Shown here piece by piece: positions 2,997 through 48,943 of a stretch of DNA of 64,000 bases. A program made the position numbers and the translations under genes. The DNA is taken from assembly GCF_003008575.1 (NCBI RefSeq), contig NZ_CP027667.1, forward strand, positions 1,306,501 to 1,370,500, read 5' to 3'. Under the pieces are notes generated by a model. It saw nothing but the letters and a program-made list of their open reading frames with translations, was not told the origin of the DNA and did no database searches. The DNA is from Melaminivora suipulveris (GTDB lineage: Bacteria > Pseudomonadota > Gammaproteobacteria > Burkholderiales > Burkholderiaceae_C). Numbering within the stretch: the first letter of the stretch is position 1; each line of letters begins with the position of its first letter.

Positions 2997-3788
2997 ATGC
3001 CCGCACCTGCCGCTTCCCACCCCCGCACCGTGCTGGTCACCGGTGGCGCCCGGCGCCTGGGCCGCACCATCGCGCTGGCGCTGGCGCAGGCCGGCTGGCA
3101 GGTGGCCGTGCATTACCGGTCATCGATCGACGAAGCTATTGAAACGGTAGCTGCCTGCGCAGCATTCACGCCGACTGACGGCTATTTTGATGCGGATTTC
3201 GAGAATGAAGCGGCAGTCCGCGCCCTGCTGCCGCGCGTGGTGGCGCACTTCGGCAGCGTGGACGCGGTGGTCAACAGCGCCTCCATGTTCGAGCACGACG
3301 GTTTTGACAGCTTCAGCTACGCGCTGCTGGAGCAGCACCTGCGCAGCAACGCCGGCGCGCCGGTGATCCTGGCCCAGGCGCTGCACGAGCACCTGCAAGC
3401 GCGTGCCGCTGCCGGCGAGGCCGAGTTGCAAGGCTGCGTGGTCAATCTGCTGGACCAAAAGCTCTGGAACCAGAACCCGGATTTCGTCAGCTACACCCTG
3501 TCCAAGGCTGCGCTGGAGGCCGCCGGCACCATGCTGGCGCTGGCGCTGGCGCCGCGCGTGCGCGTGGTCGGCGTGGCGCCGGGGCTGACGCTGACCAGCC
3601 ACATGCTGAGCGACGAGCGCTTCGGGCAGCTGCACGCCATGAGCCCGCTGGGCCGCTCGTCCACGCCCGAGGACGTGGCCGCCGCCGTGCGCTTTGCGCT
3701 GGACAACCGCTCGATCACCGGCACCACGCTGCTGGTCGATGGCGGCCAGCACCTGATGCGCTTCGAGCGCGATTTCTCGCTGATGTGA
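2997..3788 (+). CDS. SDR oxidoreductase, FolM-like pterin reductase candidate
   Basis: A 263-residue short-chain dehydrogenase. The N-terminal TGGARRLGR is the NAD(P)-binding loop, NSAS is the structural motif, and YTLSK carries the catalytic Tyr and Lys. The C-terminal VDGGQHL closes the fold. It lies 46 bp upstream of folB, which suggests a dihydropteridine or dihydrofolate reductase role like FolM; this is inference from context. Residues about 45-70 (ETVAACAAFTPTDGYFD) are encoded by a copy of the interspersed repeat, placed just after beta strand 2 where family members carry a variable helix. An upstream ATG at 2949 would overlap the divergent methyltransferase start, so 2997 is preferred. 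Confidence 0.75.
   Translation: MPAPAASHPRTVLVTGGARRLGRTIALALAQAGWQVAVHYRSSIDEAIETVAACAAFTPTDGYFDADFENEAAVRALLPRVVAHFGSVDAVVNSASMFEHDGFDSFSYALLEQHLRSNAGAPVILAQALHEHLQARAAAGEAELQGCVVNLLDQKLWNQNPDFVSYTLSKAALEAAGTMLALALAPRVRVVGVAPGLTLTSHMLSDERFGQLHAMSPLGRSSTPEDVAAAVRFALDNRSITGTTLLVDGGQHLMRFERDFSLM
3130..3200 (+). repeat. interspersed repeat copy 1 (inside SDR gene, sense)
   Basis: It matches the family pattern GTAGCTGCCTGCGC, CACGCCGACTGA(C/A)GGC, then a TTTTGA-rich tail. It is read in the frame giving TVAACAAFTPTDG. The TGA found in this frame in several intergenic copies is absent here. Confidence 0.7.
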
Positions 3789-3834
3789 TGACTGACGGCG
3801 CGCCAGCGTCATCCCCACCCACCCCCGACGCCCC

Positions 3835-4203: not shown

Positions 4204-4362
4204 GGCAGCCGGCGCTGCTGCAGAAAAAACCGGGCGCCCGGCCCCGGGCCTGACCCGGAAAAACCCCGCAGCGCCCAGGCGCGCCGCGGTTGCGGGGACA
4301 ATTCCCGCCTCGTCCGCGTCTGCCCGCCAGCAGCGCTGCACCCAGATTTCTTCAGCCCCGCC

Positions 4363-8029: not shown

Positions 8030-8161
8030 TAGGCACACGCGGGGACGCCGCCCGCATCGCAATTGCGGCCCTGCGCGAGGGGCTGCGGCCGAGCCTCTGC
8101 GCAGGCGCGCTCAGGGTTGCCCTGGTTTTGCGCGCCGCGCCGGCCGCCCACAATCGGGCGC

Positions 8162-9922
8162 ATGTCGCCCGGCCAGACCATCGTTCTCGTCACCCCTGTC
8201 TTCTTTGCGCTGATCGCGCTGGAGTGGGCGGTGGACGCGCGGCGCGGCCGACGCTCCATCGGCCTGGCCGATGCCATCAGCAGCCTGAACCTGGGCGTTC
8301 TCAGCCAGACCAGCGCGGTGTTCACCGTGCTGCTGCGCGTGGGCCTGTACACGCTGGCCTGGCAGCACCTGGCGCTGTGGCGGAACGACGCCTTCTGGAC
8401 CACCTGGTACGGCTGGCTGCTGGCGCTGCTGCTGTACGACTTCTGCTATTACTGGTTGCACCGCATGGGCCACGAGGTGGCCGTGCTGTGGGCGGCGCAT
8501 GCCGTGCACCACCAGAGCCAGCACTACAACCTGTCCACGGCGCTGCGCCAGACCAGCTCGGGCGCGCTGCTGGGCTGGCTGTTCTACCTGCCCATGGCGC
8601 TGGCGGGCGTGCCGCCGCTGGTGTTCGTCGTGGTCGGGCTCATCGACCTGCTCTACCAGTTCTGGGTGCACACCGAGCAGGTGGGGCGCCTGGGCTGGTT
8701 CGACCGCTGGTTTTGCAGCCCGAGCAACCACCGCGTGCACCACGCCGTCAATGACGACTATGTGGACAAGAACTACGGCGGCATCCTGATCGTGTGGGAC
8801 CGATTGTTCGGCACCTTCAGGGACGAGGACCCGGCGCAGCCGTGCGTCTACGGCACGCGCGGGCTGCTCAATAGCTGGGATCCTCTGTGGGCCAACGCCC
8901 AGGTCTATGCCGGCTTGGCGCAGGACAGCTGGCGCACGCGCCGCTTTACCGACAAGCTGCGCGTGTGGCTGAAACCGCCGGGCTGGCGGCCGCAGGATGT
9001 GGCGCGCAGCCATCCCAGGCCGGCGTTCGACATCGGGCAGATGCCGCTGTTCGCGCCGCCCATGGGTGGGGCGCTGCGCGCGTTCGCGCTGGCGCAGTTC
9101 GCGCTGCTGCTGGGCGGTGTGGCGGCTTTCCTGTGGCACGCGGAGAGCCTGCCCGCGCCGCAGGCCGCCCTGTGGTTTGCCGTGCTGCTGGCCTGCCAAT
9201 GGGCGCTGGCCGCGGCCATGCAGGGGCGTATCGGCATGGGACTGGCGCTGATGATCCAGGCCGGCGCCCTGGCGACGGCCACGAGCGCGCTGGGGCTGCT
9301 GCAATGGCACATGCTGTTCAAGCCGGCGGCCATGGTTTTTGCTATTACAAGCGTAGCTAACCACGCAAGAGACACGCCGACTGGCGGCCTTTTTGGCCAA
9401 AAATCGGAGCCAACGCTGCTGCTGGCGGCCCTGGCGGCGTCGCTGGCGGGCGACGTGCTGCTGATGCTGCCGGGGCTGTTCCTGCCCGGCCTGGTGGCTT
9501 TTTTGCTGGCGCACATCGCCTACGTGCTGCTGTTTCGGCGCGGCGCGCCATGGTTTGCCGCGCGCGGGGCGCTGGTGGCGGTGCTGCTGGTCGGCGCGCT
9601 CATGTACGCCTTCCTGTGGCAGGGCGGGCTGCCGGTGGCGCTGCGCCTGCCGGTGGCGGCCTATGTGCTGGTCATCGCGCTGATGGCGGCGCAGGCGCTG
9701 AGCCGGCACCGGACGCTGCGCGCCAGCGTGCCTGCAACCCATCTGGTTGCCCTGGGCGCGCTGCTGTTCATGCTGAGCGATTCGCTGCTGGCCATCAACC
9801 TGTTCGTGCGGGCCCTGCCCTGGGCGCAGGTCTGGGTGCTGGCGAGCTACTACGCGGCGCAGGCGCTGATCGTGCACGGCATGGTGCAGGCCCTGGACAG
9901 TCGCCGAGGCTTGACAGCTTGA
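8162..9922 (+). CDS. fatty acid hydroxylase-type enzyme fused to YhhN/lysoplasmalogenase-like domain
   Basis: A 586-residue multi-pass membrane protein made of two known families. Residues about 1-290 are a sterol desaturase/fatty acid hydroxylase domain with the di-iron histidine clusters HRMGHE, HAVHH and NHRVHH. This superfamily includes alkylglycerol monooxygenase. Residues about 370-580 resemble YhhN/TMEM86 lysoplasmalogenases, with the conserved AASLAGDVLLMLPG, LAHIAYVL and LFMLSDSLLAINLF. A joint action on ether lipids is inferred. Between the first two segments of the second half lies a repeat-encoded loop (VANHARDTPTGGLFGQKS). The ATG at 8162 is chosen because the longer frame adds a non-homologous basic stretch. 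Confidence 0.8.
   Translation: MSPGQTIVLVTPVFFALIALEWAVDARRGRRSIGLADAISSLNLGVLSQTSAVFTVLLRVGLYTLAWQHLALWRNDAFWTTWYGWLLALLLYDFCYYWLHRMGHEVAVLWAAHAVHHQSQHYNLSTALRQTSSGALLGWLFYLPMALAGVPPLVFVVVGLIDLLYQFWVHTEQVGRLGWFDRWFCSPSNHRVHHAVNDDYVDKNYGGILIVWDRLFGTFRDEDPAQPCVYGTRGLLNSWDPLWANAQVYAGLAQDSWRTRRFTDKLRVWLKPPGWRPQDVARSHPRPAFDIGQMPLFAPPMGGALRAFALAQFALLLGGVAAFLWHAESLPAPQAALWFAVLLACQWALAAAMQGRIGMGLALMIQAGALATATSALGLLQWHMLFKPAAMVFAITSVANHARDTPTGGLFGQKSEPTLLLAALAASLAGDVLLMLPGLFLPGLVAFLLAHIAYVLLFRRGAPWFAARGALVAVLLVGALMYAFLWQGGLPVALRLPVAAYVLVIALMAAQALSRHRTLRASVPATHLVALGALLFMLSDSLLAINLFVRALPWAQVWVLASYYAAQALIVHGMVQALDSRRGLTA
9335..9408 (+). repeat. interspersed repeat copy 2 (inside hydroxylase/YhhN fusion, sense)
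   Basis: Pattern: TTTTTGCTATTACAAGCGTA, then CACGCCGACTGGCGGCC, then TTTTTGGCCAAAAAT. It is translated as SVANHARDTPTGGLFGQK and falls in a predicted loop between two membrane helices, where an extra 20 residues could be tolerated. Confidence 0.7.
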
Positions 9923-13227: not shown

Positions 13228-13848
13228 ATGAATTCCCCTTCCCAGCCCCCATCATTTTTCAGCCGCATCGCCCTGGCGATCGGCAGCTTTTTCGCCATCC
13301 TGGGCGACGCCCAACTGGCACAGCGCGTTGCGCGCCTGCGCGGCGGCGAGCAGCTGGCTTCGGACGCGCCGCCGCGCGAAGTGCGCGTCGAGGTGCCGGT
13401 CGAGAAGATCGTCGAGACTCGCATCGAGGTGCCCGTCGAGCGCATCGTCGAAAAGACCATCGAGACACACGCCCCCACCGCCGCGCTGCAATTGCTGGGC
13501 CTGTTGCAGCGCCAGGCGCGCTTCGTCGATTTCGTGCAGGAGGATGTGGCCAGCTACAGCGACGCGGAGATCGGCGCCGCCGCGCGGGTGGTGCACGAAG
13601 GCTGCCGCAAGGTGCTGGCCGAGCACTTTGCGCTGACGCCCGTGCGCAGCGAGGCGGAAGGCACGCGCGTGACGCTGCCGGCGGGCTTTGACGCCAGCGC
13701 CGTGCGCGTGAGCGGCAACGTCGTCGGCCAGCCACCGTTCACCGGCACCCTGGCGCACCGCGGCTGGCAGGTGGCAGGCGTGCATCTGCCCGAGCTGACC
13801 GATCCGCAGGCAGCGCGCGTCCTGGCGCAAGCGGAGGTCGAGCTTTGA
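13228..13848 (+). CDS. DUF2760 protein of an Hsp70-like operon
   Basis: A 206-residue protein of the DUF2760 family, known mainly as the first gene of operons with atypical Hsp70 proteins. Its N-terminus has a hydrophobic stretch (FFSRIALAIGSFFAILGDAQL), then a repeated valine/glutamate segment (EVPVEKIVETRIEVPVERIV), probably a coiled or beta-rich linker. The C-terminal domain has VDFVQEDVASYSDAEIGAAAR and VVGQPPFTGTLAHRGW, both typical. Function is unknown. Its stop overlaps the TTG start of the next gene. Confidence 0.8.
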   Translation: MNSPSQPPSFFSRIALAIGSFFAILGDAQLAQRVARLRGGEQLASDAPPREVRVEVPVEKIVETRIEVPVERIVEKTIETHAPTAALQLLGLLQRQARFVDFVQEDVASYSDAEIGAAARVVHEGCRKVLAEHFALTPVRSEAEGTRVTLPAGFDASAVRVSGNVVGQPPFTGTLAHRGWQVAGVHLPELTDPQAARVLAQAEVEL

Positions 13849-15767
13849 GCAGCACTATCGAAACCATAGCTGACGACGCAATGAAAACGCCGACTGAAGG
13901 CCAAAACGACCTGAAATTCTCCATCGGCATCGACCTGGGCACCACGCACTGCGCGCTGTCCTGGGTGGACGAATCTGCCAGCGACGGCGAGCGCGTGGTG
14001 CAGGGCGTGCTGGACATTCCGCAGCTCACGGCGCCCGCCACCGTGCAGGCGCTGGCGCTGCTGCCGTCGTTTTTGTACCTGCCGCACGAGAGCGAGCTGA
14101 GCGCGGCCGATCGCGCCCTGCCCGGCCAGGACGAGGCCACCAGTTTCGTGCTGGGCGAGTTCGCCCGCACGCGCGGCGCGGCCACGCCGATCCGGCTGGT
14201 CGCCAGCGCCAAGAGCTGGCTGTGCCACCCCGGCGTGGACCGGCGCGCGCCCATCCTGCCGGCCGACGCGCCGCCGGATGAAGTGCAGCGCATCTCGCCG
14301 CTGGCCGCCAGCACCGAATACCTTTTGCACCTGCGCCGCGCCTGGGACCAGGCCCATCCCGATGCGCCGCTGCACGCGCAGCAGGTCACGGTGACCATCC
14401 CCGCCTCGTTCGACCCGGCCGCGCGCGAGCTCACGGCCGAGGCCTGCCGCGCCGCCGGTTTCGAGCACCTGACGCTGCTGGAGGAGCCCCAGGCGGCGCT
14501 GTACAGCTGGCTGCAGGCCAGCGGCGGCGCCTGGCGCAAGCAGGTGGCGCATGGCGACGTGATCCTGGTGGTGGACGTGGGCGGCGGCACGACCGACCTG
14601 TCGCTCATCGCCGTGCAGGAGCGGGAGGGCAACCTGCAGCTGCAGCGCATCGCCGTGGGCGAGCACATATTGCTCGGCGGCGACAACATGGACCTGGCCC
14701 TGGCCTACGGCGTGGCGCGCAAGCTGGCGGCTGGCGGCCGGCAGCTCGATGCCTGGCAGACGCGCGCGCTGGCGTACGGCTGCCGGGCGGCCAAGGAGCA
14801 GCTGCTGAGCGACGATCAACTGACCAGCGTGCCCGTGGTCGTGCCCAGCCGCGGCGCCAGGCTGATCGGCGGCAGCATCCGCACCGAGGTCACCCAGGCC
14901 GAGGTGCAGCAGCTGCTGGTCGAGGGCTTTTTCCCGCGCGTGGCCGTCACCGATCGGCCGCGGACGCGCGCCCGCGCCGCGCTCACGCAGCTGGGCCTGC
15001 CCTACGCGCAGGACGCGGCCATCACGCGCCACCTGGCGGCCTTTCTGTCGCGCCAGGCGGGCGCCACGGCGCAGGTCGAGGGGCTGGACACAGCGCCGCA
15101 GGGCGCGAGCTTTGCGCATCCCACGGCCGTGCTGTTCAACGGCGGCGTGCTCAAGGCGCCGCAGATCGAGGCGCGCATCCTGGAGGTGCTCAGCGGCTGG
15201 CTGGCGGCTGAAGGCGCCGCCCCTGCGCGGCTGCTCGAAGGCGCGCAGCTGGACCTGGCGGTGGCGCGCGGCGCGGCCTACTTCGGCCACGTGGCGCGCT
15301 CGGGGCGCGCGGTGCGCATCCGCGGCGGCACGGCGCAGAGCTACTACGTCGGCGTGGAAAGCAGCATGCCGGCCATCCCCGGCATGGAGCCGCCGATCAG
15401 CGCGCTGTGCCTGGCGCCCTTCGGCATGGAGGAAGGCAGCGAGGCGGCGCTGGCCGAGCAGCAGTTCGGCCTGGTGGTGGGCGAGCCGGTGCGGCTGCGC
15501 TTTTTCGGCTCCAGCGTGCGCCGCCACGATGCGGTGGGCACGCTGCTGGAGTTCTGGGGACCGGAGGAGCTGACCGAGCTGCAGGAGATCGAGCTCGACC
15601 TGCCATCGGAAGGCCGCGCCGCGGGCGAGGTCGTGCCGGTCACGCTGCACGCGCGCGTGACCGACATTGGCACGCTGGAGCTGCACGCCGTGCCCGTGGG
15701 CGGGCATGAGCGCTGGAAGGTGGAGTTCGACGTGCGCACGCCTGCTGCCGCCAGCGCCAGGGGCTGA
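13845..15767 (+). CDS. Hsp70-family protein (DnaK-like), first copy
   Basis: A protein of up to 640 residues. The actin-like ATPase domain shows phosphate 1 (IGIDLGTTHCALSW), phosphate 2 (VVDVGGGTTDLSL) and the adenosine-binding block NGGVLKAPQIEARIL. The remainder is a short beta-rich domain; there is no DnaK-type C-terminal lid. It belongs to the atypical Hsp70 family encoded beside DUF2760. The start is uncertain. TTG at 13845 overlaps the previous stop, and ATG at 13881 is internal. Both lie in an interspersed repeat that encodes IADDAMKTPTEGQ, just ahead of the first conserved strand. Confidence 0.85.
   Translation: MSSTIETIADDAMKTPTEGQNDLKFSIGIDLGTTHCALSWVDESASDGERVVQGVLDIPQLTAPATVQALALLPSFLYLPHESELSAADRALPGQDEATSFVLGEFARTRGAATPIRLVASAKSWLCHPGVDRRAPILPADAPPDEVQRISPLAASTEYLLHLRRAWDQAHPDAPLHAQQVTVTIPASFDPAARELTAEACRAAGFEHLTLLEEPQAALYSWLQASGGAWRKQVAHGDVILVVDVGGGTTDLSLIAVQEREGNLQLQRIAVGEHILLGGDNMDLALAYGVARKLAAGGRQLDAWQTRALAYGCRAAKEQLLSDDQLTSVPVVVPSRGARLIGGSIRTEVTQAEVQQLLVEGFFPRVAVTDRPRTRARAALTQLGLPYAQDAAITRHLAAFLSRQAGATAQVEGLDTAPQGASFAHPTAVLFNGGVLKAPQIEARILEVLSGWLAAEGAAPARLLEGAQLDLAVARGAAYFGHVARSGRAVRIRGGTAQSYYVGVESSMPAIPGMEPPISALCLAPFGMEEGSEAALAEQQFGLVVGEPVRLRFFGSSVRRHDAVGTLLEFWGPEELTELQEIELDLPSEGRAAGEVVPVTLHARVTDIGTLELHAVPVGGHERWKVEFDVRTPAAASARG
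13849..13919 (+). repeat. interspersed repeat copy 3 (at the 5' end of hsp70 gene, sense)
   Basis: Pattern: ATCGAAACCATAGCTGACGA, then ACGCCGACTGAAGGCC, then AAAACGACCTGAAAT. It spans both candidate start regions of the first Hsp70 gene and is translated as TIADDAMKTPTEG. The repeat tail ends right where homology to other Hsp70 proteins begins. Confidence 0.75.
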
Positions 15768-15770
15768 GCC

Positions 15771-16805
15771 ATGGCCGAGCGCCCCGTCTCCTTAACCCCG
15801 CCGCCCGGCGACTATGCCGAGTGGCTGGCCGAGCTGAAAGGCCGCATCCACAGCGCCCAGCAGCGCGCGGCGCTGGCGGTCAATCGTGAACTGGTCTTGC
15901 TGTACTGGCAGATCGGCCAGGACATCCTGCAGCGCCAGGAGCGCGAGGGCTGGGGTGCCAAGGTCATCGAGCGGCTGGCGCATGACTTGCGGGCGGCGTT
16001 TCCGCGGATGAAGGGGTTTTCGCGCGCCAACCTGATGTACATGCGCGCTTTTGCCCAGGCCTGGCCGCAGGAGGCAATCGTCCAACAGGCCGTTGGACAA
16101 TTGCCCTGGGGCCACAATTTGGTGCTGCTGGCCAAGGCCAAGGATGGACGCCTTCGACTGGCTTATGCCGAGCGTGCCGTCACGCATGGCTGGTCGCGCA
16201 CCGTGCTGGAGATGCACATCGAGGCCCGGCTGCTGGAGCGCGAAGGCAAGGCCCTCACCAATTTCCAGCAGCGCCTGCCCGGACCAGGGACCGACCTGGC
16301 GCGCCAGTCGCTCAAGGACCCTTATCTGTTCGACTTCCTGGGCATGGGCCAGGAAGCGGGCGAGCGCGCCATCGAAACGGCGCTGGTCCAGCACATCACC
16401 CAGTTCCTGCTCGAACTGGGTGCAGGCTTCGCGTTCGTCGGCCGCCAGGTGCACGTGGAAGTGGGCGGGGACGACTTCTTCCTGGACGTGCTGTTCTACC
16501 ACCTCAAGCTGCGCTGCTACGTGGTGATCGAACTCAAGGCGGACAAGTTCAAGCCCGAGCACCTGGGCCAACTGGGCTTTTACCTGACGGCCGTGGACGC
16601 GCAGGTCAAGAGCGAACACGACAACCCCACCATCGGCTTGCTGCTGTGCAAAAGCAAGAACCAGGTCGTCGCGGAATACGCACTGCGCGACCAGGCGCAG
16701 CCTTTGGGCGTTGCCGAGTACCGCATGCTGGAGTCGCTGCCCGCAGAGTTGCAAACTGAGCTGCCCAGTACCGAGCAGATCGAAAGCGAGCTGGGCGAGC
16801 TGTGA
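15771..16805 (+). CDS. DUF1016/YhcG-type PD-(D/E)XK nuclease protein
   Basis: A 344-residue protein. The N-terminal half is the DUF1016 domain (ELVLLYWQIGQDILQRQ, WGAKVIERLAHDLRAAFP, GFSRANLMYMRAFAQ, QLPWGHNLVLL). The C-terminal half is a PD-(D/E)XK fold with FLDVLFYHLKLRCYVVIELK, which holds the catalytic D and ExK. Relatives are accessory or mobile genes linked with restriction islands and are proposed nucleases. Here it sits between two Hsp70 genes: 3 bp after the first stop and overlapping the second start by 4 bases. Such tight fitting suggests co-transcription, although functional relation to the chaperones is unknown. Confidence 0.85.
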   Translation: MAERPVSLTPPPGDYAEWLAELKGRIHSAQQRAALAVNRELVLLYWQIGQDILQRQEREGWGAKVIERLAHDLRAAFPRMKGFSRANLMYMRAFAQAWPQEAIVQQAVGQLPWGHNLVLLAKAKDGRLRLAYAERAVTHGWSRTVLEMHIEARLLEREGKALTNFQQRLPGPGTDLARQSLKDPYLFDFLGMGQEAGERAIETALVQHITQFLLELGAGFAFVGRQVHVEVGGDDFFLDVLFYHLKLRCYVVIELKADKFKPEHLGQLGFYLTAVDAQVKSEHDNPTIGLLLCKSKNQVVAEYALRDQAQPLGVAEYRMLESLPAELQTELPSTEQIESELGEL

Positions 16806-19663
16806 CCGCATCCGCAGCCCGCTACGCCATCGGCATCGACCTAGGCACCAGCCATAGCGCCCTGGCCTGGGCGCCGCTGGCCGGCGATGCCGCGCACATC
16901 GCGCTGCTGCCCATCCCGCAGCGCGCCTCGCCCGCCGAAGTTCAGGCCGACGTGCTGCTGCCGTCGGCGCGCTACCAGGCGGCTGCTGGCGAGCTGGGCG
17001 ACGCCTGGCGCACGCCCTGGCCACCGCTGGCCGCGCAGGACGAGGCCCCCGCCGTCGTCGGCCGCTGGGCGCGTGCCCTGGGCGCCGCCACGCCGCAGCG
17101 CCTGGTGGCCAGCGCCAAGAGCTGGCTGTCGCACGCCGGCGTGGACCGCACCGCGCCCATCCTGCCCTGGGGCGCGGGGGGTGAGGTCGAGAAAATTTCC
17201 CCGCTCCAGGCCTGCGCCAGCTACCTGGCGCACCTGCGCGCCGCATGGGACGCGGCGCACCCGGATGCGCCGCTGTCCCAGCAGACCGTCGTGCTCACCG
17301 TGCCGGCCTCGTTCGACGAAGGCGCGCGCGCGCTGACCTTGCAGGCGGCGGAGCTCGCCGGCCTGCCGCCCGTGCAGCTGCTGGAGGAGCCCAAGGCCGC
17401 CTTCCTCGACTGGCTGAACCTGCAAGGCAGCGCCCTGGCGAGGCAACTGGCGGACAGCCGCCTGGTGCTGGTGGTGGACGTGGGCGGCGGCACCACCGAC
17501 CTGACACTGATCCGCGTGCAGCCGGGCGAGGACGGCGCCGACCTGCCCATCCTGACCCGCACCGCCGTGGGCGAGCACCTGATGCTGGGCGGCGACAACA
17601 TGGACCTGGCGCTGGCCCACCGGCTGGAGCCGCAGCTGGCCGGCGGCGAAGGGCAGCGCCTGCCGCCGGCGCGCTTTGCCGAGCTGGTGCAGCGCTGCCG
17701 CGCCGCCAAGGAGCAGCTGCTGGCGGGCGACGCGCCGCCGGCCATGCCCATCACCCTGCTGGGCGCGGGCTCGCGCCTGATGGCGCAGGCGCGCACCGCG
17801 CAGCTCACGCGCGAGCAGGTGCGCGAGTGGGTGGTCGAGGCCTTTTTGCCCGACGCGCAACTGCACGACGTGCCCGCGCGGCGCCAGGGCGCGCTGCGCA
17901 CCCTGAGCCTGCCCTACCCGCCGGATGCCGCCATCTCGCGGCATCTGGCGCAGTTCCTGGCGCTGCACGCGGGGGGCGGCGACGCGCTGCCGGACACGGT
18001 GCTGCTCAACGGCGGCGTGTTCCACGCGCACGCCCTGGCCAGCCGGCTGACCGCGCTGCTGGGCCGCTGGCGCGGTGCGCCGGTGCGCGTGCTGCACAAC
18101 CCGCACCCGGACTGGGCGGTGGCGCGCGGCGCGGCGGCACACGCGCTGGCGGGTCACCAGGCAAAATTTCAGTCAAAAAGGCCGTCAGCCGGCGTGGATC
18201 AAGCGCCGACAGCTATCAAAAGCATAGTTCCACGCATCGGCGGCGGCTCGGCGCGCAGCTACTGGCTGGTGCTGCCGGCACGAGCAGGCGCGGCGCCGCA
18301 GGGCCTGTGCCTGCTGCCGCGCGGCACCGAGGAAGGCGCTCGCGTGGTGCTGGCCGGGCGGCGCTTCGCCCTCACGCTGGGCCAGCCGGTGCGCTTCGAC
18401 CTGGCCGCGCGCAGCCAGGGCCAGGCGCAGGCCGGCCAGCTCGCGCCGCTTGCGGGCGAAGGCTGGACCGAGCTGCCGCCGCTGGCCACCGTGCTGCCCG
18501 CCCCGCCCGGCCGCGCCAGCGCGCGCGTCGAGGTGCAGCTGCAAGCCAGCATGAGCGAGGTCGGCACGCTGGAGGTGCGCTGCGTGGCGCAGGACGACTC
18601 GGACCAATCCTGGCTGTTGCCCTTTGCCGTACGCGGCGCAGCGCACCGCGACGTCACTCCTGAAAACATAGCTGCTGGCGCAGACAACACGCCGACTGAA
18701 GGCCAAAAAGGTCTCGAATCTCTCGATGCGCGCCTGCCGGACGCCATCGCCCTGCTGGAGCGCATCTTCGGCCAGCAGGCGCAGGACGTGCCGCCGCGCG
18801 AGGTACGCCAGCTGCGCCAGTCGCTGCAAAAGCTGCTGGGCCCGCGCGAGGACTGGCCGCTGCCGCTGTTGCGCGCCTTGTTCGACGCGCTGCTGGCGCG
18901 CGCGCGCCGGCGCCGGCGCAGTCCCGAGCACGAGCGCGCCTGGCTGAACCTGGCCGGTTGGTGCCTGCGCCCCGGATTGGGGGCGCAGCTGGACGCCTGG
19001 CGCGTGGCGGAAGTCTGGCAGCTGTACCCCCAGGGCCTGGCGCATCCGCAAGAGGCGGCCAACTGGACCGAGTGGTGGGTCTTCTGGCGCCGCGTGGCCG
19101 CGGGACTCGATGAAGCCCAGCAGATGCAGCTGCTGGAGGACGTCGCCGGCTGCATGCAAAAGGCGGTGCAGCGCAGCGGCAGCGCGCGCGCGCGCTGGGG
19201 CAGCTACGACGACATGCTGCGCCTGTTCGCCGCCATGGAGGCCGTGCCCTGGCAGTACCGGCAGGAGATGGGCCAGTGGATGCTGGCGCGCCTGGCCAAG
19301 CCCGACGAGCCGCAGCAGACCTGGTGGGCCATCGGCCGCCTGGCCGCGCGCACGGCGCTGGCGGCCAACGCGCACCGCGTCATGCCGCCCGAAGCGGCGC
19401 GCGAGTTCTTGCAGGCCACCCTGGCGCAGGACTGGCGCAGAAACGAGCACGCCATGTTCGCCGCCGTGCAGATCGCCCGCATGACGGGCGAGCGCGCGCT
19501 GGACCTGCCGCAGGAGCTGCGGGCGCAGGTGCTGGACAAGCTGGCCGCCAGCGGCGCGCCCGAGCGCTGGATGGGGCAGTTGCGCGAGGTGGTCGAGCTG
19601 GACGAGCAGGACCGCCAGCGCAGCCTGGGCGACAGCCTGCCGCCGGGGCTCGTCTTGCTCTGA
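16802..19663 (+). CDS. Hsp70-family protein with long C-terminal extension (DUF3731-like)
   Basis: A 953-residue protein. Residues 1-450 are an Hsp70 ATPase domain (IGIDLGTSHSALAW, VVDVGGGTTDLTL, NGGVFHAHALASRL) closely related to the first copy, for example both contain ASAKSWL.H.GVDR. Residues about 640-950 are a helical domain (EHERAWLNLAGWCLRPG, WTEWWVFWRRVAAGL, QTWWAIGRLAARTAL), matching the DUF3731 region of such proteins. GTG start overlaps the nuclease stop. Two interspersed repeats lie within the gene: one antisense (about residues 454-477), one sense (about residues 618-640, ENIAAGADNTPTEGQKG). Both keep the frame and sit at domain linkers. Confidence 0.85.
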   Translation: MTASAARYAIGIDLGTSHSALAWAPLAGDAAHIALLPIPQRASPAEVQADVLLPSARYQAAAGELGDAWRTPWPPLAAQDEAPAVVGRWARALGAATPQRLVASAKSWLSHAGVDRTAPILPWGAGGEVEKISPLQACASYLAHLRAAWDAAHPDAPLSQQTVVLTVPASFDEGARALTLQAAELAGLPPVQLLEEPKAAFLDWLNLQGSALARQLADSRLVLVVDVGGGTTDLTLIRVQPGEDGADLPILTRTAVGEHLMLGGDNMDLALAHRLEPQLAGGEGQRLPPARFAELVQRCRAAKEQLLAGDAPPAMPITLLGAGSRLMAQARTAQLTREQVREWVVEAFLPDAQLHDVPARRQGALRTLSLPYPPDAAISRHLAQFLALHAGGGDALPDTVLLNGGVFHAHALASRLTALLGRWRGAPVRVLHNPHPDWAVARGAAAHALAGHQAKFQSKRPSAGVDQAPTAIKSIVPRIGGGSARSYWLVLPARAGAAPQGLCLLPRGTEEGARVVLAGRRFALTLGQPVRFDLAARSQGQAQAGQLAPLAGEGWTELPPLATVLPAPPGRASARVEVQLQASMSEVGTLEVRCVAQDDSDQSWLLPFAVRGAAHRDVTPENIAAGADNTPTEGQKGLESLDARLPDAIALLERIFGQQAQDVPPREVRQLRQSLQKLLGPREDWPLPLLRALFDALLARARRRRRSPEHERAWLNLAGWCLRPGLGAQLDAWRVAEVWQLYPQGLAHPQEAANWTEWWVFWRRVAAGLDEAQQMQLLEDVAGCMQKAVQRSGSARARWGSYDDMLRLFAAMEAVPWQYRQEMGQWMLARLAKPDEPQQTWWAIGRLAARTALAANAHRVMPPEAAREFLQATLAQDWRRNEHAMFAAVQIARMTGERALDLPQELRAQVLDKLAASGAPERWMGQLREVVELDEQDRQRSLGDSLPPGLVLL
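18162..18230 (-). repeat. interspersed repeat copy 4 (inside second hsp70, antisense)
   Basis: Reverse-complement form: AAAATTTCAGTCAAAAAGGC, then GCCGGCGTGGATCAAGCGCC, then AGCTATCAAAAGCATAG. On the gene strand it is read as QAKFQSKRPSAGVDQAPTAI. It is the only intragenic copy in antisense orientation and preserves the reading frame. Confidence 0.75.
18655..18721 (+). repeat. interspersed repeat copy 5 (inside second hsp70, sense)
   Basis: Pattern: CCTGAAAACATAGCTGCTGG, then ACACGCCGACTGAAGGCC, then AAAAAGGTCT. It is translated as ENIAAGADNTPTEGQKG and lies at the junction between the beta-rich domain and the helical C-terminal domain. Confidence 0.75.
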
Positions 19664-25815: not shown

Positions 25816-25823
25816 GCGGTTTA

Positions 25824-25887
25824 TTACTGTTTTGATAGCACCCTACGCTTGATCCACGACGACTGAAGCCCAAAAAGACCTGAAATG
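25824..25887 (+). repeat. interspersed repeat copy 6 (between phoH and ybeY)
   Basis: Pattern: TTTTGATAGCACCCTACGCT, then TGATCCACGACGACTGAAGC, then CCAAAAAGACCTGAAAT. The final ATG of the repeat is the ybeY start codon, so the repeat forms the whole intercistronic spacer and no Shine-Dalgarno sequence is visible in it. Confidence 0.75.
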
Positions 25888-27194: not shown

Positions 27195-27203
27195 ATTGCG
27201 CGT

Positions 27204-27262
27204 CTTGAAGGGTTTTCGGCCCTGAGCCGGCGTGATACAGGCGCAGGCAGCTATCTTTTTTG
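27204..27262 (-). repeat. interspersed repeat copy 7 (antisense, overlapping the dtd stop)
   Basis: Read on the minus strand: AAAAAAGATAGCTGCCTGCG, then TATCACGCCGGCTCAGGGCC, then GAAAACCC. The TAG of the conserved ATAGCT is the dtd stop codon; the last dtd residues (QKR) come from the repeat's A-rich edge. Confidence 0.7.
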
Positions 27263-27715
27263 CAGCAGCGCAGCCGGCTCGATGCGCAGCGGGATGGTCA
27301 CCGGCCCGTCGTTGACCAGGTGTACCTGCATGTCGGCGGCGAACTCGCCGGTCTGCACCTGCGGGTGCTGCGCGCGGGCGCGCTGCACGAAGTGGTCGTA
27401 CAGGCGCCGCCCCTCGGCCGGTGCGGCGGCCTGGCTGAAGCCCGGCCGGTTGCCGCCGCGCGTGTCGGCCGCCAGCGTGAACTGGCTGACCAGCAGCAGG
27501 CCGCCGCCCACGTCCTGCACGCTCAGGTTCATCTTGCCCGCCGGATCGTTGAAGATGCGCAGCTTGAGCAGTTTGGCCAGCAGCCGGTCGGCCTCGGCCT
27601 CGGTGTCGCCCTGCTCGGCGCACACCAGCACCAACAGGCCCTGGTCGATGCGGCCAATGGTCTGGCCGGCGACTTCCACGTGCGCCTGGCGCACGCGCTG
27701 CAAAACGCTGATCAT
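27251..27715 (-). CDS. dtd: D-aminoacyl-tRNA deacylase
   Basis: A 154-residue enzyme that hydrolyses D-amino acids mis-attached to tRNA. Family signatures are [15 protein letters not shown] at the start, the active-site motif [21 protein letters not shown] near residue 75 (SQFTL), and the Gly-cis-Pro motif region in [13 protein letters not shown] (NxGPVT). Its ATG overlaps the stop of the upstream cation-efflux gene (ATGA), indicating translational coupling. The C-terminus ends inside an interspersed repeat. Confidence 0.95.
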
Positions 27716-32832: not shown

Positions 32833-32834
32833 CG

Positions 32835-34067
32835 ATGTCCCTGCATTCCATCGAACTATTCGCGGGCGCGGGTGGCTTGGCCCTTGGCGTTGCACTGGCC
32901 GGGTTCAAGACGCGCGCGGTGGTCGAATGGGACCAGTGGGCCTGCGACACGATCCGCGAAAACCAACGGCGTGGACACCCCCTCGTCGCGGGATGGCCTG
33001 TCATCCAGGGTGACGTGCGCGATTGGGTTCGCGACACCGGCACCGACGCACTCTCGCCCGATCTCGACTTGATCGCGGGCGGCCCGCCGTGCCAACCTTT
33101 CTCCATGGGGGGTAAGCACAAGGCACACCAGGACAGTCGCGACATGTTCCCCGTGACGGTGCAGGCCATTCGCCGCCTGCGCCCGAGGGCATTCATCATC
33201 GAGAACGTCAAGGGGCTGACCCGCTCGGCGTTTCACGACTACTACCAGTACATCCTGCTGCAGCTCCAGTTCCCCGAAATCGCACTCAAACCCGATGAAA
33301 GCTGGAGCGATCACAACCGCCGCCTTCAACGGCATCACACCGCCAAGGGTTCGCGCGCCAACGAACTGCGCTACCGAGTGACAGCGACACTGGTCAACGC
33401 CGCCAATCTTGGGGTGCCACAACGGCGAGAAAGAGTATTCATCGTCGGATTTCGGCACGACGTGGACGCGAACTGGTGTTTTCCGCGCCAGACCCATTCG
33501 CTGGATTCGCTTTTGCACGACCAGTGGGTCACAGGCCACTATTGGGATCGACACGAAGTAGCACGTCAGCACCGTCCCGCCCCGCCGCAGAGCTTGGCCG
33601 CCACCTTGAATCGTCTGCGGGGGCTGGGCCTTGGCCCCATGCACGCGCCATGGCAAACCGTGCGCGACGCGCTGCGCGGATTGCCCGAACCCACCACATC
33701 CGGTTGCCACATCCTGAACCACCGCCTGCAAGTCGGCGCGCGCTCGTATCCCGGCCACACCGGCAGCCCTCTTGATTTGCCCGCCAAGACACTCAAGGCA
33801 GGTGACCACGGAGTGCCGGGCGGCGAAAATATGCTATTGCGCCCTGATGGCTCGGTGCGGTACTTCACCGTTCGCGAATCGGCGCGCTTGCAAACTTTCC
33901 CGGACGGCTACGAACTGCACGGATCCTGGTCCGAAGCCATGCGCCAGTTGGGCAACGCCGTTCCCATGCTGCTGGGCCGCGCGGTGGCGGCCAGCGTGGC
34001 GGAACACCTGCTGCTGTCCTCGACACAGGGCATGTCTAAATATCCAGTGGCCGCGAGCCTCGCTTGA
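32835..34067 (+). CDS. DNA (cytosine-5-)-methyltransferase
   Basis: A 410-residue C5 methyltransferase. Motif I is ELFAGAGGLALG, motif IV GGPPCQPFS with the catalytic Cys, motif VI ENVKGL, motif VIII QRRERVFIVGF, motif IX RESARLQTFP and motif X QLGNAVP. The variable target-recognition region is about 240-345. It starts 2 bp after vsr, with GGAGG preceding the ATG, and ends just before the endonuclease gene. By association with an Eco29kI-like enzyme the target is probably CCGCGG; that is inference. Confidence 0.93.
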   Translation: MSLHSIELFAGAGGLALGVALAGFKTRAVVEWDQWACDTIRENQRRGHPLVAGWPVIQGDVRDWVRDTGTDALSPDLDLIAGGPPCQPFSMGGKHKAHQDSRDMFPVTVQAIRRLRPRAFIIENVKGLTRSAFHDYYQYILLQLQFPEIALKPDESWSDHNRRLQRHHTAKGSRANELRYRVTATLVNAANLGVPQRRERVFIVGFRHDVDANWCFPRQTHSLDSLLHDQWVTGHYWDRHEVARQHRPAPPQSLAATLNRLRGLGLGPMHAPWQTVRDALRGLPEPTTSGCHILNHRLQVGARSYPGHTGSPLDLPAKTLKAGDHGVPGGENMLLRPDGSVRYFTVRESARLQTFPDGYELHGSWSEAMRQLGNAVPMLLGRAVAASVAEHLLLSSTQGMSKYPVAASLA

Positions 34068-34072
34068 TCGAC

Positions 34073-35020
34073 ATGAGCGAACCAACACCCTTCAATCCAT
34101 TGGACAAGTTCAACCTCGGCCGCAGCGTGGCCGAGGCCCTGCTTGGGCGCAAGCCTGTCGCACTCGATGGCTTGGCGCGCTTTCAGGGTGCTGGCATCTA
34201 CGCCTTGTACTACACGGGCTCGTTTCCGGCATATCAAGCATTGAGCTCGCGCAATACGGGCACCGAAGGCTTGATTGATCCGATTTATGTGGGAAAGGCC
34301 ACCCCTGCCGGAGGCCGCAAGGGCGCTTCGCTCGACACAACGCCCAAGACCTGGGCGTTGTGCAAGCGCCTGGGAGAACATGCCGACAGCATCCGCGCCG
34401 CGCCGAATCTGCGCATCGACGACTTTCGCTGCCGCTATCTCGTCGTCGATGACATCTGGATTCCGTTGGGCGAGTCCTTGTTGATCGCCAAGTTCTCGCC
34501 GCTCTGGAACAGCCTGATCGACGGTTTCGGCAACCACGATCCGGGCAAGGGCCGCTACCAAGGCATGCGCACGCGCTGGGACGTGCTGCACGCGGGGCGC
34601 GCTTGGGCCGACCGCTGCGCCGCGCGGCCCGAGACCGCCGGCGATGTGGAACGCGAGGTTCGAGCCCATCTGGATCGCGTTATCCCACCGCCATCTCCTC
34701 ACTTTCTCGTCGAGGAAAAAAGGCGAGCTACCGCGTCATGCCGCCCGGCAAACAGTGAAAGCGACGATCGCCGCCAACGGCTTTCGCTTCCGCGTGCCCC
34801 ACGGCACGCTCTTGTGCGTCTCCGACAAGCCGCTGCACGGCGAGATCAAGCTGCCCGGCATGGCCAACCACTTCTACCGCGAGCGCGTTCAACAACACCT
34901 GCTCATCGGCATGCGCGCCATCGACATCCTGCGCGCCGGTGGCACGCACCGGCTGCACAGCCGCAAGCTGCGCAGCTTTGCCGAGGTGGCGTTTCAGTAA
35001 TTTCGCTACTAATTCTGTAG
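34073..35020 (+). CDS. Eco29kI-type GIY-YIG restriction endonuclease with read-through tail
   Basis: A 315-residue frame. Residues 1 to about 225 match the Eco29kI family: RFQGAGIYALYYTG (GIY-type core), DPIYVGKATPAG (YVG), EHADSIRAAPNLRIDDFRCR, SPLWNSLIDGFGNHDPGKGR, and WDVLHAGRAWADRC. Eco29kI itself is near 214 residues and cuts CCGCGG. From about residue 229 the frame runs into the second amn 3' copy out of frame, giving an Arg/His/Pro-rich tail of about 87 residues with no natural homology. The native stop appears lost at the junction. It begins 5 bp after the methyltransferase stop. Whether the fused enzyme is active is unknown. Confidence 0.85.
   Translation: MSEPTPFNPLDKFNLGRSVAEALLGRKPVALDGLARFQGAGIYALYYTGSFPAYQALSSRNTGTEGLIDPIYVGKATPAGGRKGASLDTTPKTWALCKRLGEHADSIRAAPNLRIDDFRCRYLVVDDIWIPLGESLLIAKFSPLWNSLIDGFGNHDPGKGRYQGMRTRWDVLHAGRAWADRCAARPETAGDVEREVRAHLDRVIPPPSPHFLVEEKRRATASCRPANSESDDRRQRLSLPRAPRHALVRLRQAAARRDQAARHGQPLLPRARSTTPAHRHARHRHPARRWHAPAAQPQAAQLCRGGVSVISLLIL
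34757..35000 (+). pseudogene. second copy of amn 3' end (direct repeat, copy 2)
   Basis: This stretch encodes ATIAANGFRFRVPHGTLLCV through SFAEVAFQ and a stop, in a frame different from the endonuclease frame that crosses it. It matches the last about 80 codons of amn with substitutions (for example Tyr to His, Asp to Gln) and a 2-base loss near its start. It has no start region of its own. It is followed within 3 bp by an interspersed repeat and then ackA, so this copy probably marks the original downstream border of amn. Confidence 0.85.
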
Positions 35021-35075
35021 CTGCTCGCGATTACTCCACGCCGGCTCAAGGCGGTTTTGACCCGAAAACAGGCGT
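35003..35075 (+). repeat. interspersed repeat copy 8 (after amn 3' copy)
   Basis: Pattern: TTCTGTAGCTGCTCGCGATT, then CTCCACGCCGGCTCAAGGC, then GGTTTTGACCCGAAAACAGG. It fills the gap between the duplicated amn end and the convergent ackA stop. Confidence 0.7.
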
Positions 35076-41238: not shown

Positions 41239-41316
41239 GCGCTCGGCAGGCCGCGCAGCGCACCCGCGCCGGGGCTGGCCAGCGCATCCACACATCAGAA
41301 GCGACGGGGTTGCTGC

Positions 41317-41381
41317 TAGTATTTCAATAGCAACAACCCTATGAAACACGCCGACTGAGGGCTAAAAAGACCCAATTTCTA
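41317..41381 (+). repeat. interspersed repeat copy 9 (intergenic)
   Basis: Pattern: TATTTCAATAGCAACAACCC, then ATGAAACACGCCGACTGAGG, then GCTAAAAAGACCCAATTTCT. It lies between the crotonase gene and the phosphoesterase gene. The rest of this 224-bp gap shows no clear signal. Confidence 0.7.
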
Positions 41382-43884: not shown

Positions 43885-44038
43885 TTGCGACGGGCGGCGG
43901 TGTAGGAGGCTTACCGGCGCTAGCGTAGGACCAGCAGCCAGTCGAGCTCGGCAGGGCGGGTGGCATGGTCAGCGGGTTGTACAGCGTGCTGCCGGGGAAT
44001 TGGGCGCGGGCGCCAAGCACGGATTGCGCTTCTTTTTC
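43885..44038 (-). pseudogene. fossil of an N6-adenine-type DNA methyltransferase C-terminus
   Basis: The minus strand reads EAQSVLGARAQFPGSTLYNPLTMPPAL, very like the C-terminal block of large class I DNA methyltransferases of restriction systems (typically ...ARxxFPxxxLADLYDPLTMPPxLxKAHxxLDRAVD). The LAD before LYN is missing, and after PPAL the match continues only in another frame (AELD). Stops follow at once. It starts exactly at the edge of interspersed repeat copy 10. The rest of the 343-bp gap (43789-44131) has no gene. Confidence 0.4.
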
Positions 44039-44095
44039 GATAGCTGCTCGCGCTTGATTCACGCCGACCAAGGCCGGATTCGACTGCAAAATGAG
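44030..44095 (+). repeat. interspersed repeat copy 10 (intergenic)
   Basis: Pattern: TTTTTCGATAGCTGCTCGCG, then CTTGATTCACGCCGACCAAG, then GCCGGATTCGACTGCAAAAT. This copy is among the closest to the consensus and has the TGA (GCTTGATTC) in the frame that the coding copies use. It abuts the methyltransferase fossil. Confidence 0.75.
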
Positions 44096-46428: not shown

Positions 46429-47922
46429 ATGCAACTGCTCGCCCCCGGCACCGAACTCGACGGCTTTACCGTGCACGAGTGCATTCACTCGGGCGGCATG
46501 GCGCACATCTACCGGGTGGGCTGGCCGGGCGCCACGTGCGATCCGGGCTTTGCCCTGGCGATGAAGGTGCCGCGCATGACGGTGCGCGACGGCGCGGAGA
46601 ACATCGTCAGCTTCGAGGTCGAGCTGACCATCCTGCCCATGCTCACCGGCGCGCACGTGCCGCGCTTCGTCGCCGCCGGCGACCTGCTGCACCTGCCCTA
46701 CCTGGTCATGGAATACATCGAGGGCCAGACGCTGCAGCACTGGCTGGACGAGCACCCGGCGCGCGACCACGCGGCGCGCGCGCCCGAAGCAATAGCCCGC
46801 ATCGGCGCGGCCATGGCGATCGCCGCGCACAGCATCCACGAGCAGGACGTGTGCCACCTGGACCTGAAGCCGGCCAACGTGCTGCTGCGCCCGGACGGCA
46901 GCGCCGTGCTGCTGGACTTCGGCCTGTCGTGCCATGCGCACTACCCCGATCTGCTGGCCGAGGAGATGAGAAAAGCCGTCGGCTCGCCCGCCTGGATCGC
47001 GCCCGAGCAGGTGGTGGGCGTGCGCGGCGACCTGAGGAGCGACATCTTCGCCATCGGCGTGATGCTCTACGAGATGGCCACGGGCGAGCTGCCCTTTGGC
47101 GCGCCGGCCACTGCCGGCGGCATGCGCCAGCGCCTGTGGATGACGCCCGCGCCGCCGCGCGAGCACCGCCCCGATCTGCCCGAGTGGTTGCAGGAGATCA
47201 TCCTGCGCTGCCTGGAGCCGGCCGCCGCCTACCGCTACCCCTCGGCGGCGCAACTGGCCTTCGACCTGGCCAACCCCGAGCAGGTCGCCGTCACCGAACG
47301 CGGGCGGCGCCTGCGCGGGCCAGGGCTGCGCCGCCACCTCAAGCGCTGGATCCGCGCCGCCGGCATGCACTATGAGCCCAGCCCGCTGCCGCACGATCTG
47401 ATCGAGCGCTCGCCCATCGTCATGGTGGCCGTTCCGCACGAGGACGTGAGCGACGCCACGCTGTACTCGCTGCGGGAAGCCGTGGCGCGTTCGCTGGGCC
47501 TGCGCCCGGGCGCGCGGCTGGCGTGCGTCACCGTGATCTCGCCCACGGCCGCCAGCAGCTCGGATGCCGAGCGCAGCGAGACCGCGCTGCGCCGCCTGCA
47601 CCTGGCGCGCCTGAAAACATGGGCGCAGCCGCTGCCGCTGGCGCAGCACGGCGTGAGCTTTCACGTGCTGGAGGCCGGCGACGTGGCGCAGGCGCTGTTG
47701 CGCTACGCCGAGGGCAACCGCGTGGGCCTGATGATCCTGGGCGCGGCCACGCACGGCTTGCAGTTGCAGCGCTTCATCGACACCGTGCCCATCCGGGTGG
47801 CGCGCGACGCGCCATGCACCGTCATCCTGGTCAAGCAGCAGCTGCCGTTCGATCTGCTGGGCAGTGGCGGCCATGGCGACAATGCCGGGCATGACGCTCC
47901 CGCCCACGACCCAGCCGCCTGA
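46429..47922 (+). CDS. serine/threonine protein kinase fused to universal stress protein domain
   Basis: A 497-residue protein. Residues about 8-285 are a Hanks-type kinase: glycine loop IHSGGMAHIYRV, ATP lysine in LAMKVP, HLDLKPANVLL (the usual RD arginine is Leu), DFGLSCH, and SPAWIAPEQ. Residues about 325-478 form a UspA domain (IVMVAVPHEDVSDATLYSLREAV, and VGLMILGAATHGL before APCTVILVK). No membrane segment is evident, so it appears cytoplasmic. Its last 41 bases overlap the next kinase gene, indicating coupled expression. The ATG at 46429 is favoured because homology starts at once. Confidence 0.87.
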   Translation: MQLLAPGTELDGFTVHECIHSGGMAHIYRVGWPGATCDPGFALAMKVPRMTVRDGAENIVSFEVELTILPMLTGAHVPRFVAAGDLLHLPYLVMEYIEGQTLQHWLDEHPARDHAARAPEAIARIGAAMAIAAHSIHEQDVCHLDLKPANVLLRPDGSAVLLDFGLSCHAHYPDLLAEEMRKAVGSPAWIAPEQVVGVRGDLRSDIFAIGVMLYEMATGELPFGAPATAGGMRQRLWMTPAPPREHRPDLPEWLQEIILRCLEPAAAYRYPSAAQLAFDLANPEQVAVTERGRRLRGPGLRRHLKRWIRAAGMHYEPSPLPHDLIERSPIVMVAVPHEDVSDATLYSLREAVARSLGLRPGARLACVTVISPTAASSSDAERSETALRRLHLARLKTWAQPLPLAQHGVSFHVLEAGDVAQALLRYAEGNRVGLMILGAATHGLQLQRFIDTVPIRVARDAPCTVILVKQQLPFDLLGSGGHGDNAGHDAPAHDPAA

Positions 47923-48943
47923 CGCCGGCCACCCCTATTCGCTTCTGACTCCCGACGTGGTGCTGGACGCCCTGGCCAGCGTCGGCCTGCACGGCGATGG
48001 GCGCCTGATGGCGCTGGCCTCGTACGAAAACCGCGTCTATCAGGCGGTACTGGAGGATGGCAGCCGGGTGGTCGCCAAGTTCTACCGGCCAGGGCGCTGG
48101 AGCCGCGCGCAGATCCTGGAGGAGCACGCCTTCGCGCTGGAGCTGGCGCATGCCGAGGTGCCGGCGGTGGCGCCGTTGGTGCTGGCCGGCAGCAGCCTGC
48201 ACGCGCACGCGGGCTTCGACTTCTCCGTCAGTCCCTGGCGTGGGGGGCGCCAGCCGGAGCTGGACGACTTGGAGACGCTGGAGTGGATCGGCCGCTTTCT
48301 GGCGCGGCTGCACAACGTCGGCGCGGCGCGGCCGTTTCAGCACCGCCCGGCGCTGGACTTGGCCACCTTCGGGCGCGAGCCGCGCGAGTGGCTGCTGACC
48401 CATGGCGCCATCGCCCCGGAGCACGCCGGCGCGTGGCGGCAGGCGTGCGATGACGCTCTCGAATCGATAGCTGCCTGCGCTTCATTCATGCCGACTGAGG
48501 GTCGATTTGACCCAAAATCCGTGGCGCTGCTGCGCCTGCACGGCGACTGCCACCCCGGCAACATCCTGTGGACGCCGGTGGACGCGCCCGCCGGCGGCGG
48601 CCCGCACTTCGTCGACCTGGACGACGCGCGCACCGGGCCGGCAGTGCAGGATGTGTGGATGCTGCTGTCGGGCGATCGGCGCCAGCGCACCCTGCAGCTG
48701 TCGGCGCTGCTCGATGGCTACGAGCAGCTGCGCGCGTTCGACCGGCGCGAGCTCGCCCTGATCGAGCCGCTGCGCACCCTGCGGCTGATTCACTACAGCG
48801 CCTGGCTGGCGCGGCGCTTCGCCGGCGATCCGATCTTTGCCATCAACTTTCCGTGGTTCGGCACGCCGGACTACTGGCGCGGGCAGGTCGACGTGTTGCG
48901 CGAGCAGATCGAGGCCATGCGCGAGGAGCCTCTGCACGCCTGA
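47882..48943 (+). CDS. srkA: stress response kinase SrkA (RdoA/YihE family)
   Basis: A 353-residue APH-fold Ser/Thr kinase. Blocks are LTPDVVLDALASVGLHGDGR, LASYENRVYQAVLEDGSRVVAKFYRPGRW, the catalytic LHGDCHPGNILW, and HFVDLDDARTGPAVQDVWMLLSGD (metal Asp). In E. coli SrkA counters the MazF toxin and damage-induced death. Residues about 194-214 (LESIAACASFMPTEGRFDPKS) come from an interspersed repeat just before the catalytic loop. E. coli SrkA has a shorter connection there. The start is uncertain among ATGs at 47864, 47882 and 47891. Confidence 0.85.
   Translation: MPGMTLPPTTQPPDAGHPYSLLTPDVVLDALASVGLHGDGRLMALASYENRVYQAVLEDGSRVVAKFYRPGRWSRAQILEEHAFALELAHAEVPAVAPLVLAGSSLHAHAGFDFSVSPWRGGRQPELDDLETLEWIGRFLARLHNVGAARPFQHRPALDLATFGREPREWLLTHGAIAPEHAGAWRQACDDALESIAACASFMPTEGRFDPKSVALLRLHGDCHPGNILWTPVDAPAGGGPHFVDLDDARTGPAVQDVWMLLSGDRRQRTLQLSALLDGYEQLRAFDRRELALIEPLRTLRLIHYSAWLARRFAGDPIFAINFPWFGTPDYWRGQVDVLREQIEAMREEPLHA
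48456..48521 (+). repeat. interspersed repeat copy 11 (inside srkA, sense)
   Basis: Pattern: CTCTCGAATCGATAGCTGCC, then CTTCATTCATGCCGACTGAG, then GGTCGATTTGACCCAAAAT. It is translated as LESIAACASFMPTEGRFDPK. Where other copies have GCTTGATTC this one has GCTTCATTC, so one base removes the stop codon. Confidence 0.8.

Follow-up and report, generated by a model that had tools for sequence, protein, structure and literature searches.

A repeated DNA motif of about 68 bp occurs, both within genes and between them, in a 64,000-nucleotide stretch (hereafter the window) of the Melaminivora suipulveris genome, which is a single contig of 3.75 Mb. Sense copies within genes, all on the forward strand, lie in an SDR gene (2949-3788; copy 3131..3199, core at 3148), in a hydroxylase-YhhN fusion gene (8063-9922; copy 9337..9405, core at 9354), in the N-terminal part of a first Hsp70 gene, Hsp70-1 (13845-15767; copy 13850..13918, core at 13867), in the linker of a second, Hsp70-DUF3731 (16802-19663; copy 18652..18720, core at 18669), and in srkA (47864-48943; copy 48451..48519, core at 48468). 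Hsp70-DUF3731 also bears an antisense copy on the reverse strand (18164..18232, core at 18180). The fusion gene is a single open reading frame (ORF) joining fatty-acid hydroxylase and YhhN domains; in genomes G008, G018 and G081 its best match is confined to the YhhN part, and in several others to the hydroxylase part. Outside genes, forward-strand copies are found at 25819..25887 (core at 25836), reaching about one base into the start of a called gene, at 41311..41379 (core at 41328) and at 44024..44092 (core at 44041). On the reverse strand there is an intergenic copy at 59268..59336 (core at 59284) and one at the 3' end of a called gene (27202..27270, core at 27218).

The repeated 36-nt core was recovered at all the window sites listed in the original prediction from this DNA; a further weak row of the core search, at 38446, was discarded as chance. 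The columns that carry information extend from -17 to +51 relative to the TAG of the motif and hold 66 bits across 66 columns, with a composition that is AT-rich relative to the host genome. A position-weight matrix seeded with 12 window copies was applied to the window and to 40 stretches of 20 kb, 864 kb in all. It found 145 copies at 12 bits or more and none in first-order simulated sequence, so that chance does not account for them; extrapolation gives some 630 copies per genome, about one per 6 kb. They divide 78 to 67 between the strands, and the GC skew of the stretches appears too flat for locating origin and terminus. Placement and frames rest on our own codon-usage gene caller, which puts 82 copies between genes, 31 across a gene end and 32 within genes, where about 129 would be expected from the coding fraction. 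The Hsp70-1 copy is classed as gene-overlapping because the caller picked a later start. Among gaps, convergent ones are favoured (26 of the 82 intergenic copies in 16% of gap bases) and divergent ones avoided.

An Rfam search with the motif returned nothing at gathering thresholds. Folding of 12 aligned copies gave three pairs, none with a two-sided change, and RNA structure is thus unsupported. Searches of open-licence PMC papers for sequence strings, dispersed repeats and uptake sequences in Comamonadaceae found no report of the motif.

Reading frames and lengths at in-gene copies

Translation confirms that, as originally predicted, the five sense copies in window genes are read in the same frame. 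Four of them give TVAACAAFTPTDG, SVANHARDTPTGG, NIAAGADNTPTEG and SIAACASFMPTEG in the common frame xTA GCT, and TIADDAMKTPTEG falls in the N-terminal part of Hsp70-1, provided that translation starts at the TTG at 13845. The stops described earlier are likewise present. A TGA closes the xTA frame in the copies at 25836, 44041 and 59284 and is missing from the five sense in-gene copies; the srkA copy differs there by a single base, with CTTCAT instead of CTTGAT. TAG closes one further sense frame. To this we can add that the third is closed by the TGA in GACTGA, so that between TAG and the TGAs of CTTGAT and GACTGA the consensus is closed in all three sense frames.

The single-frame rule holds for the sense copies of the window but fails genome-wide. 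There, 12 of the 20 sense in-gene copies use the xTA frame, six the frame in which TAG is replaced by a sense codon, and two the other; the 12 antisense copies divide 10, one and one. Similar proportions are found in the 23 of 32 in-gene copies that score at least 40 bits (sense 8, 4 and 2; antisense 7, 1 and 1). Even use of the frames, which had been named as evidence against the prediction, is therefore not what is seen. Openness was read from the 82 intergenic copies: in the same frame order, 34%, 1% and 16% are free of stops in sense and 35%, 12% and 45% in antisense. The antisense frame most often open is thus used once, and the sense frame that is almost never open six times. Openness alone does not predict in-gene frame use, and the residues encoded seem to matter too.

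The original prediction went on to explain the in-gene copies as in-frame insertions kept where open. Part of this stands, in that the copies do lie in ORFs, those of the window in one frame and without the intergenic stop. What does not stand is the insertion of a unit, since the SDR, PurK and carboxyltransferase copies are length-neutral. A whole unit of 63-68 nt would add 21 residues. Among 30 SDR sequences, our own included, drawn from the best 30 loci per search, the segment has the same length in 17 of 19 that bear the motif and in 10 of 11 that are free of it, motif-bearing being defined as A/G-TAGC in frame, which puts the motif-like L267 (CTAGC) and L183 (GCAGC) among the motif-free. 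Aligned with the solved SDR 4e3z, the protein is gapless over the motif segment; with the two best structure matches, 5tgd and 5bt9, gaps of one residue offset each other within the motif, beyond which comes a gap of two residues. PurK and the beta subunit of the carboxyltransferase, each with an antisense copy, are gapless against solved homologues. In these three enzymes, then, the motif is superimposed on native codons and the length is unchanged. It had also been asked whether orthologues without the DNA repeat show the same peptide by ordinary homology: the same segment is present, but its residues differ.

Elsewhere lengths vary more. The hydroxylase-YhhN segment is one residue longer in the motif-free L186. 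Gains at the motif amount to 2 residues in LpxK, 4 in Fmt, 8 in Tmk, 8 in an HI0933-type flavoprotein, 10 in SrkA and 16 in YfiH, and a nucleosidase gains 15 around a gapless core of 17. Compared with Delftia, Hsp70-DUF3731 has some 14 more residues in the sense linker and about 2 more at the antisense site, where the excess over L094 reaches about 19; orthologues free of the motif also vary in these linkers. With starts assigned by us, Hsp70-1 has 24 residues before FSIGID compared with 13, 7 and 5 in L085, L095 and L098, all motif-free. Even at the otherwise length-neutral SDR site, the orthologue of the AT-rich genome G051 (L279) combines its own dialect of the motif with 14 extra residues, showing that insertions can accompany the motif. 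Ten in-gene proteins were put to Pfam and eight of them compared with the PDB, which with SDR and SrkA makes 10 of the 32 in-gene copies. In the comparisons made, changes range from 0 to about +19 residues and the full gain of 21 is never found. The insertion reading mostly fails.

Dialects, relations and spacing of the copies

Stretches from other genomes of the family give distinct consensuses, or dialects: G003, of the same genus, G045, G051, G008, G014, G019, G062 and G084, the last resting on 7 copies. A model of the M. suipulveris copies has matches at E <= 1e-6 in only nine of the 40 genomes searched, its own included. Motif density exceeds 4 per 10 kb in G019 (L307-L312) and G062 (L296-L300), over twice that of the window genome and equivalent to one copy per roughly 2.4 kb; G062 carries a further dialect. 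The dialect of other genera, derived from 48 copies with loci L076, L078 and L087 and matches below 35 bits left out, shows a strong dyad symmetry centred on +18 (52 bits), whereas that of M. suipulveris is mostly without symmetry (9 bits).

Orthologous in-gene copies tend to follow the genome in which they lie. For srkA (five sites), SDR (four) and YhhN (four), in the five genomes where a locus was available, the leave-one-out matrix of the home genome gives the best score for 11 of 13 copies; the test drew on copies scoring 30 bits or more, which for G008 means 24 of 26 and for G045 19 of 19. Both misses are G008 copies that went to the G003 matrix, and of its own 24 copies the G008 matrix picks out only 10. 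In srkA, a copy stands at the same codon in all five genomes compared and four are best fitted by their own dialect. The sense and antisense sites of Hsp70-DUF3731 have a position and orientation common to species of Comamonas, Diaphorobacter, Acidovorax and others, where the sequence is of the family type, in other dialects at the sense linker; Delftia and some Comamonas and Diaphorobacter lack the motif at them. The shared sites and the fit to each genome's dialect together indicate that sites persist while their sequence follows the dialect of the genome.

Similarity among copies was assessed on those of at least 30 bits (133 of 145 in M. suipulveris, 103 of 105 in G003 and 20 of 22 in G051). 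The 133 M. suipulveris copies reach a maximum pairwise identity of 0.818, and their nearest-neighbour identity is 0.735 compared with 0.702 when columns are shuffled independently. Linkage between columns acts mostly at separations of 1-4 nt, excess mutual information falling from 0.118 bits at distance 1 to 0.021 at 3 and 0.0025 beyond 12 nt. A simulation from a Markov form of the matrix (maximum identity 0.809, nearest-neighbour 0.722) reproduces most of the similarity. The linkage of neighbouring columns arises largely because A-tracts are AAA or TTT and seldom mixed: in columns 38-40 there are 19 AAA (0.8 expected), 95 TTT (63.6) and six mixed tracts (55.8). This coherence suggests that the motif is probably read, and recognised, as double-stranded DNA. 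The copies look as if they were close to independent draws from the motif, with sites evolving mostly separately toward the consensus, rather than products of recent transposition, and the data leave room for slight copying between sites.

Taking GC below 0.66 as a proxy for acquired DNA, the five stretches below that value hold three copies and the other 35 hold 128. One of the two copy-free stretches encodes RTX/VWA/DUF4214 proteins, and copper-resistance genes lie in the other. In the 35 stretches of higher GC, 93 of 96 occupied gaps hold a single copy and counts per stretch show low dispersion (0.55, P 0.016). When at most one copy per gap was allowed in these same stretches, pairs closer than 1.5 kb number 13 against 23.8 ± 3.8 expected (P 0.005), and pairs closer than 2.5 kb 28 against 40.4 ± 4.2 (P 0.001). 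In G003, uniform placement would give 31.2 pairs below 1.5 kb, and 22 are seen (P 0.007).

Origin and drive of the motif

These observations point to a motif built in place rather than inserted, a conclusion in which we have high confidence, set a little lower than at first because gains of up to about 19 residues at linker sites were recounted. It is based on length-neutrality in three enzymes, near-independent copies, dialect matching, spacing, scarcity at low GC and the structure of the A-tracts. The motif would arise at many chromosomal sites by base changes, which we infer to be its builder, and by small length changes, and would be held near a genome-specific consensus. Within genes it would form where native codons already match it in part, provided that the frame can be opened and the protein tolerates the residues; limits of this kind may account for the single TPTEG-like peptide encoded by the five window copies. 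The driving force, by analogy with DNA uptake sequences, may be molecular drive. Our best guess for its source is biased DNA uptake, in which a receptor would prefer DNA carrying the motif and recombination would then fix variants that improve it. For the proposal as a whole, a motif of about 68 bp built in place and driven through DNA uptake, we consider the chances evenly balanced.

Several findings weigh against it. Several sites show a net gain of 8 to about 19 residues, and the M. suipulveris copies are slightly more alike than simulated ones (P 0.01 for the nearest neighbour and 0.005 for the longest shared run). In G003 the nearest-neighbour and maximum identities (the latter 0.848 against 0.774) exceed all 200 simulations and one shared run is 36 nt long. 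Pairs within 500 nt are not depleted (5 against 5.1, with one copy per gap), and dispersion is not significant over all 40 stretches (0.86, P 0.29) or in G003 (0.60, P 0.09). The competence proteins ComEC, present in 75 of 80 family genomes, and DprA, in all 80, do not separate motif-bearing from motif-free genomes: ComEC is intact in eight of 10 motif-bearing and three of four motif-free genomes sampled, two of those four having 1-3 weak matches to the motif. No ComEC match was found in G062, which has 4.2 copies per 10 kb; in G007, with 1.44 per 10 kb, ComEC matches fall in three adjacent pieces in different frames (C1:1836740-1837544); and in G022 and G053 ComEC is present and the motif was not found. 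Lastly, 66 bits is far above the roughly 13.5 that, by our arithmetic, would mark some 630 sites, so that a simple receptor would not require such a motif. We know of no uptake motif as long as this one.

It is conceivable, though we are inclined to doubt it, that the motif propagates itself through a recognition system other than the known uptake receptors. It would then be a Comamonadaceae motif, neither copied nor inserted, that overwrites native sequence including conserved enzymes, its dialects turning over genome-wide between and within genera. That the sites are instead recognised by a chromosome-organising or recombination protein, and maintained or driven by that system, seems unlikely to us. 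A long site bounded by A-tracts and dyad-symmetric in other genera would suit such a protein, as would the spacing of copies and the failure of ComEC to track the motif, but on its own this leaves the turnover of dialects and the rewriting of conserved enzymes such as SDR unexplained.

Ectopic gene conversion, homogenising an ancient dispersed repeat within each genome, would account for dialects that change in concert at orthologous sites and for the slight surplus of shared runs, which is greater in G003. However, the linkage between columns, about 0.02 bits at 3 nt and fading beyond 12 nt, is short for conversion tracts, and length-neutral overwriting of codons, spacing and A-tract coherence remain unexplained; we regard conversion as a rather improbable source of the pattern. 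A mobile palindromic element that inserts in frame and is retained where the frame is open draws some credit from the sites that gain 8 to about 19 residues, from the symmetry of the other-genera dialect and from the excess of copies between genes. The SDR alignments, with PurK and carboxyltransferase, largely refute it, and it also sits badly with the absence of near-identical pairs among the M. suipulveris copies, with their spacing, with sites shared in position and orientation across genera of different dialects, and with the want of a RAYT family match in this genome, all of which make it improbable. Least credible by a wide measure is a terminator, regulatory hairpin or functional peptide, for the enrichment in convergent gaps and a symmetry sufficient for a hairpin in other genera are answered by the weak dyad of the M. 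suipulveris dialect, in-gene copies in both orientations and several frames, the empty Rfam search and the interchange of A- and T-tracts.

Rickettsia palindromic elements are repeats found within genes in open frames. The in-gene copies described here resemble them in their open frames and differ in having length-neutral sites, no close copies and no whole-unit gain in the comparisons made. The resemblance to the DNA uptake sequences (DUS) of Neisseriaceae and the uptake signal sequences (USS) of Pasteurellaceae goes further. According to the account in PMC7811141, USS evolve through point mutation rather than insertion, are under-represented both in acquired DNA and in coding sequence, and show the relatively even spacing that molecular drive predicts; the full length in its model is 31 bp. 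For Neisseria, PMC2397512 describes many DUS as arising by recombination, with a core-genome bias and a spacing that matches conversion fragments, and PMC2346458 gives a 10-12 bp sequence whose orientation within reading frames is biased. The present motif shares with DUS and USS hundreds of copies with a common consensus, lineage dialects of the kind treated in PMC3630211, an in-place origin as in PMC7811141 (length-neutral in SDR, PurK and carboxyltransferase), a relatively even spacing, seen at 1.5 and 2.5 kb though not under 500 nt, scarcity in low-GC stretches and coding sequence, and uneven use of orientation in genes. Set against the descriptions in these papers, it differs in being about 68 bp long rather than compact (10-31 bp), in its density of about one copy per 6 kb (per 2.4 kb in G019 and G062), in belonging to another family, in the length gains at some sites and in that uptake is here inferred.

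REP/REPIN sequences, as presented in PMC3116915, are also short dispersed extragenic repeats, and some dialects of the present motif share their symmetry. That description couples them to a RAYT transposase, but a search for RAYT (PF01797) found no match in the M. suipulveris genome, the same search being positive in five of 14 control genomes, and the present copies are mostly singlets. The repeat BRE of Betaproteobacteria including Comamonadaceae, with some copies in coding sequences, is described in PMC3110155 as about 90 bp long, 69% GC on average, sometimes tandem and present in 1-29 copies per genome. As the identity of an AT-rich, mostly single motif it is ruled out by composition and arrangement, on that description of BRE rather than by its sequence.

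The motif is more unusual than was originally supposed, being long, dialect-bearing and able to overwrite coding sequence in place. If it is of the uptake type, it would bring such motifs to a third bacterial family, at no less than twice the length so far known to us and with several distinct dialects inside one family, and motif origin, dialect switching and the dragging of protein sequence would become directly testable at orthologous codons. A more general caution is that a repeat-like peptide in a protein can be a by-product of selection or drive on DNA.

Repeats adjoining further copies in the window

Three further copies of the motif lie at or beside larger repeats. Two are divergent and stand at opposite ends of a structure of some 590 nt, one on the forward strand at 1246..1314 (core at 1263) and the other on the reverse strand at 1777..1845 (core at 1793). 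The structure, at 1251-1840, is a long imperfect inverted repeat whose arms are 80% complementary, with 279 nt between the inner arms.

The third, an intergenic forward-strand copy at 35001..35069 (core at 35018), supplies the TAG that terminates an ORF for an Eco29kI-type endonuclease. A 259-nt direct repeat (89% identical; 32145-32403 and 34742-35000) flanks the ORFs at 32425-35020, which include that of the endonuclease. The 3' end of the ORF at 30922-32403 is thereby duplicated, an arrangement resembling an insertion with a long target duplication, and the second copy of the repeat stops where the motif copy starts.

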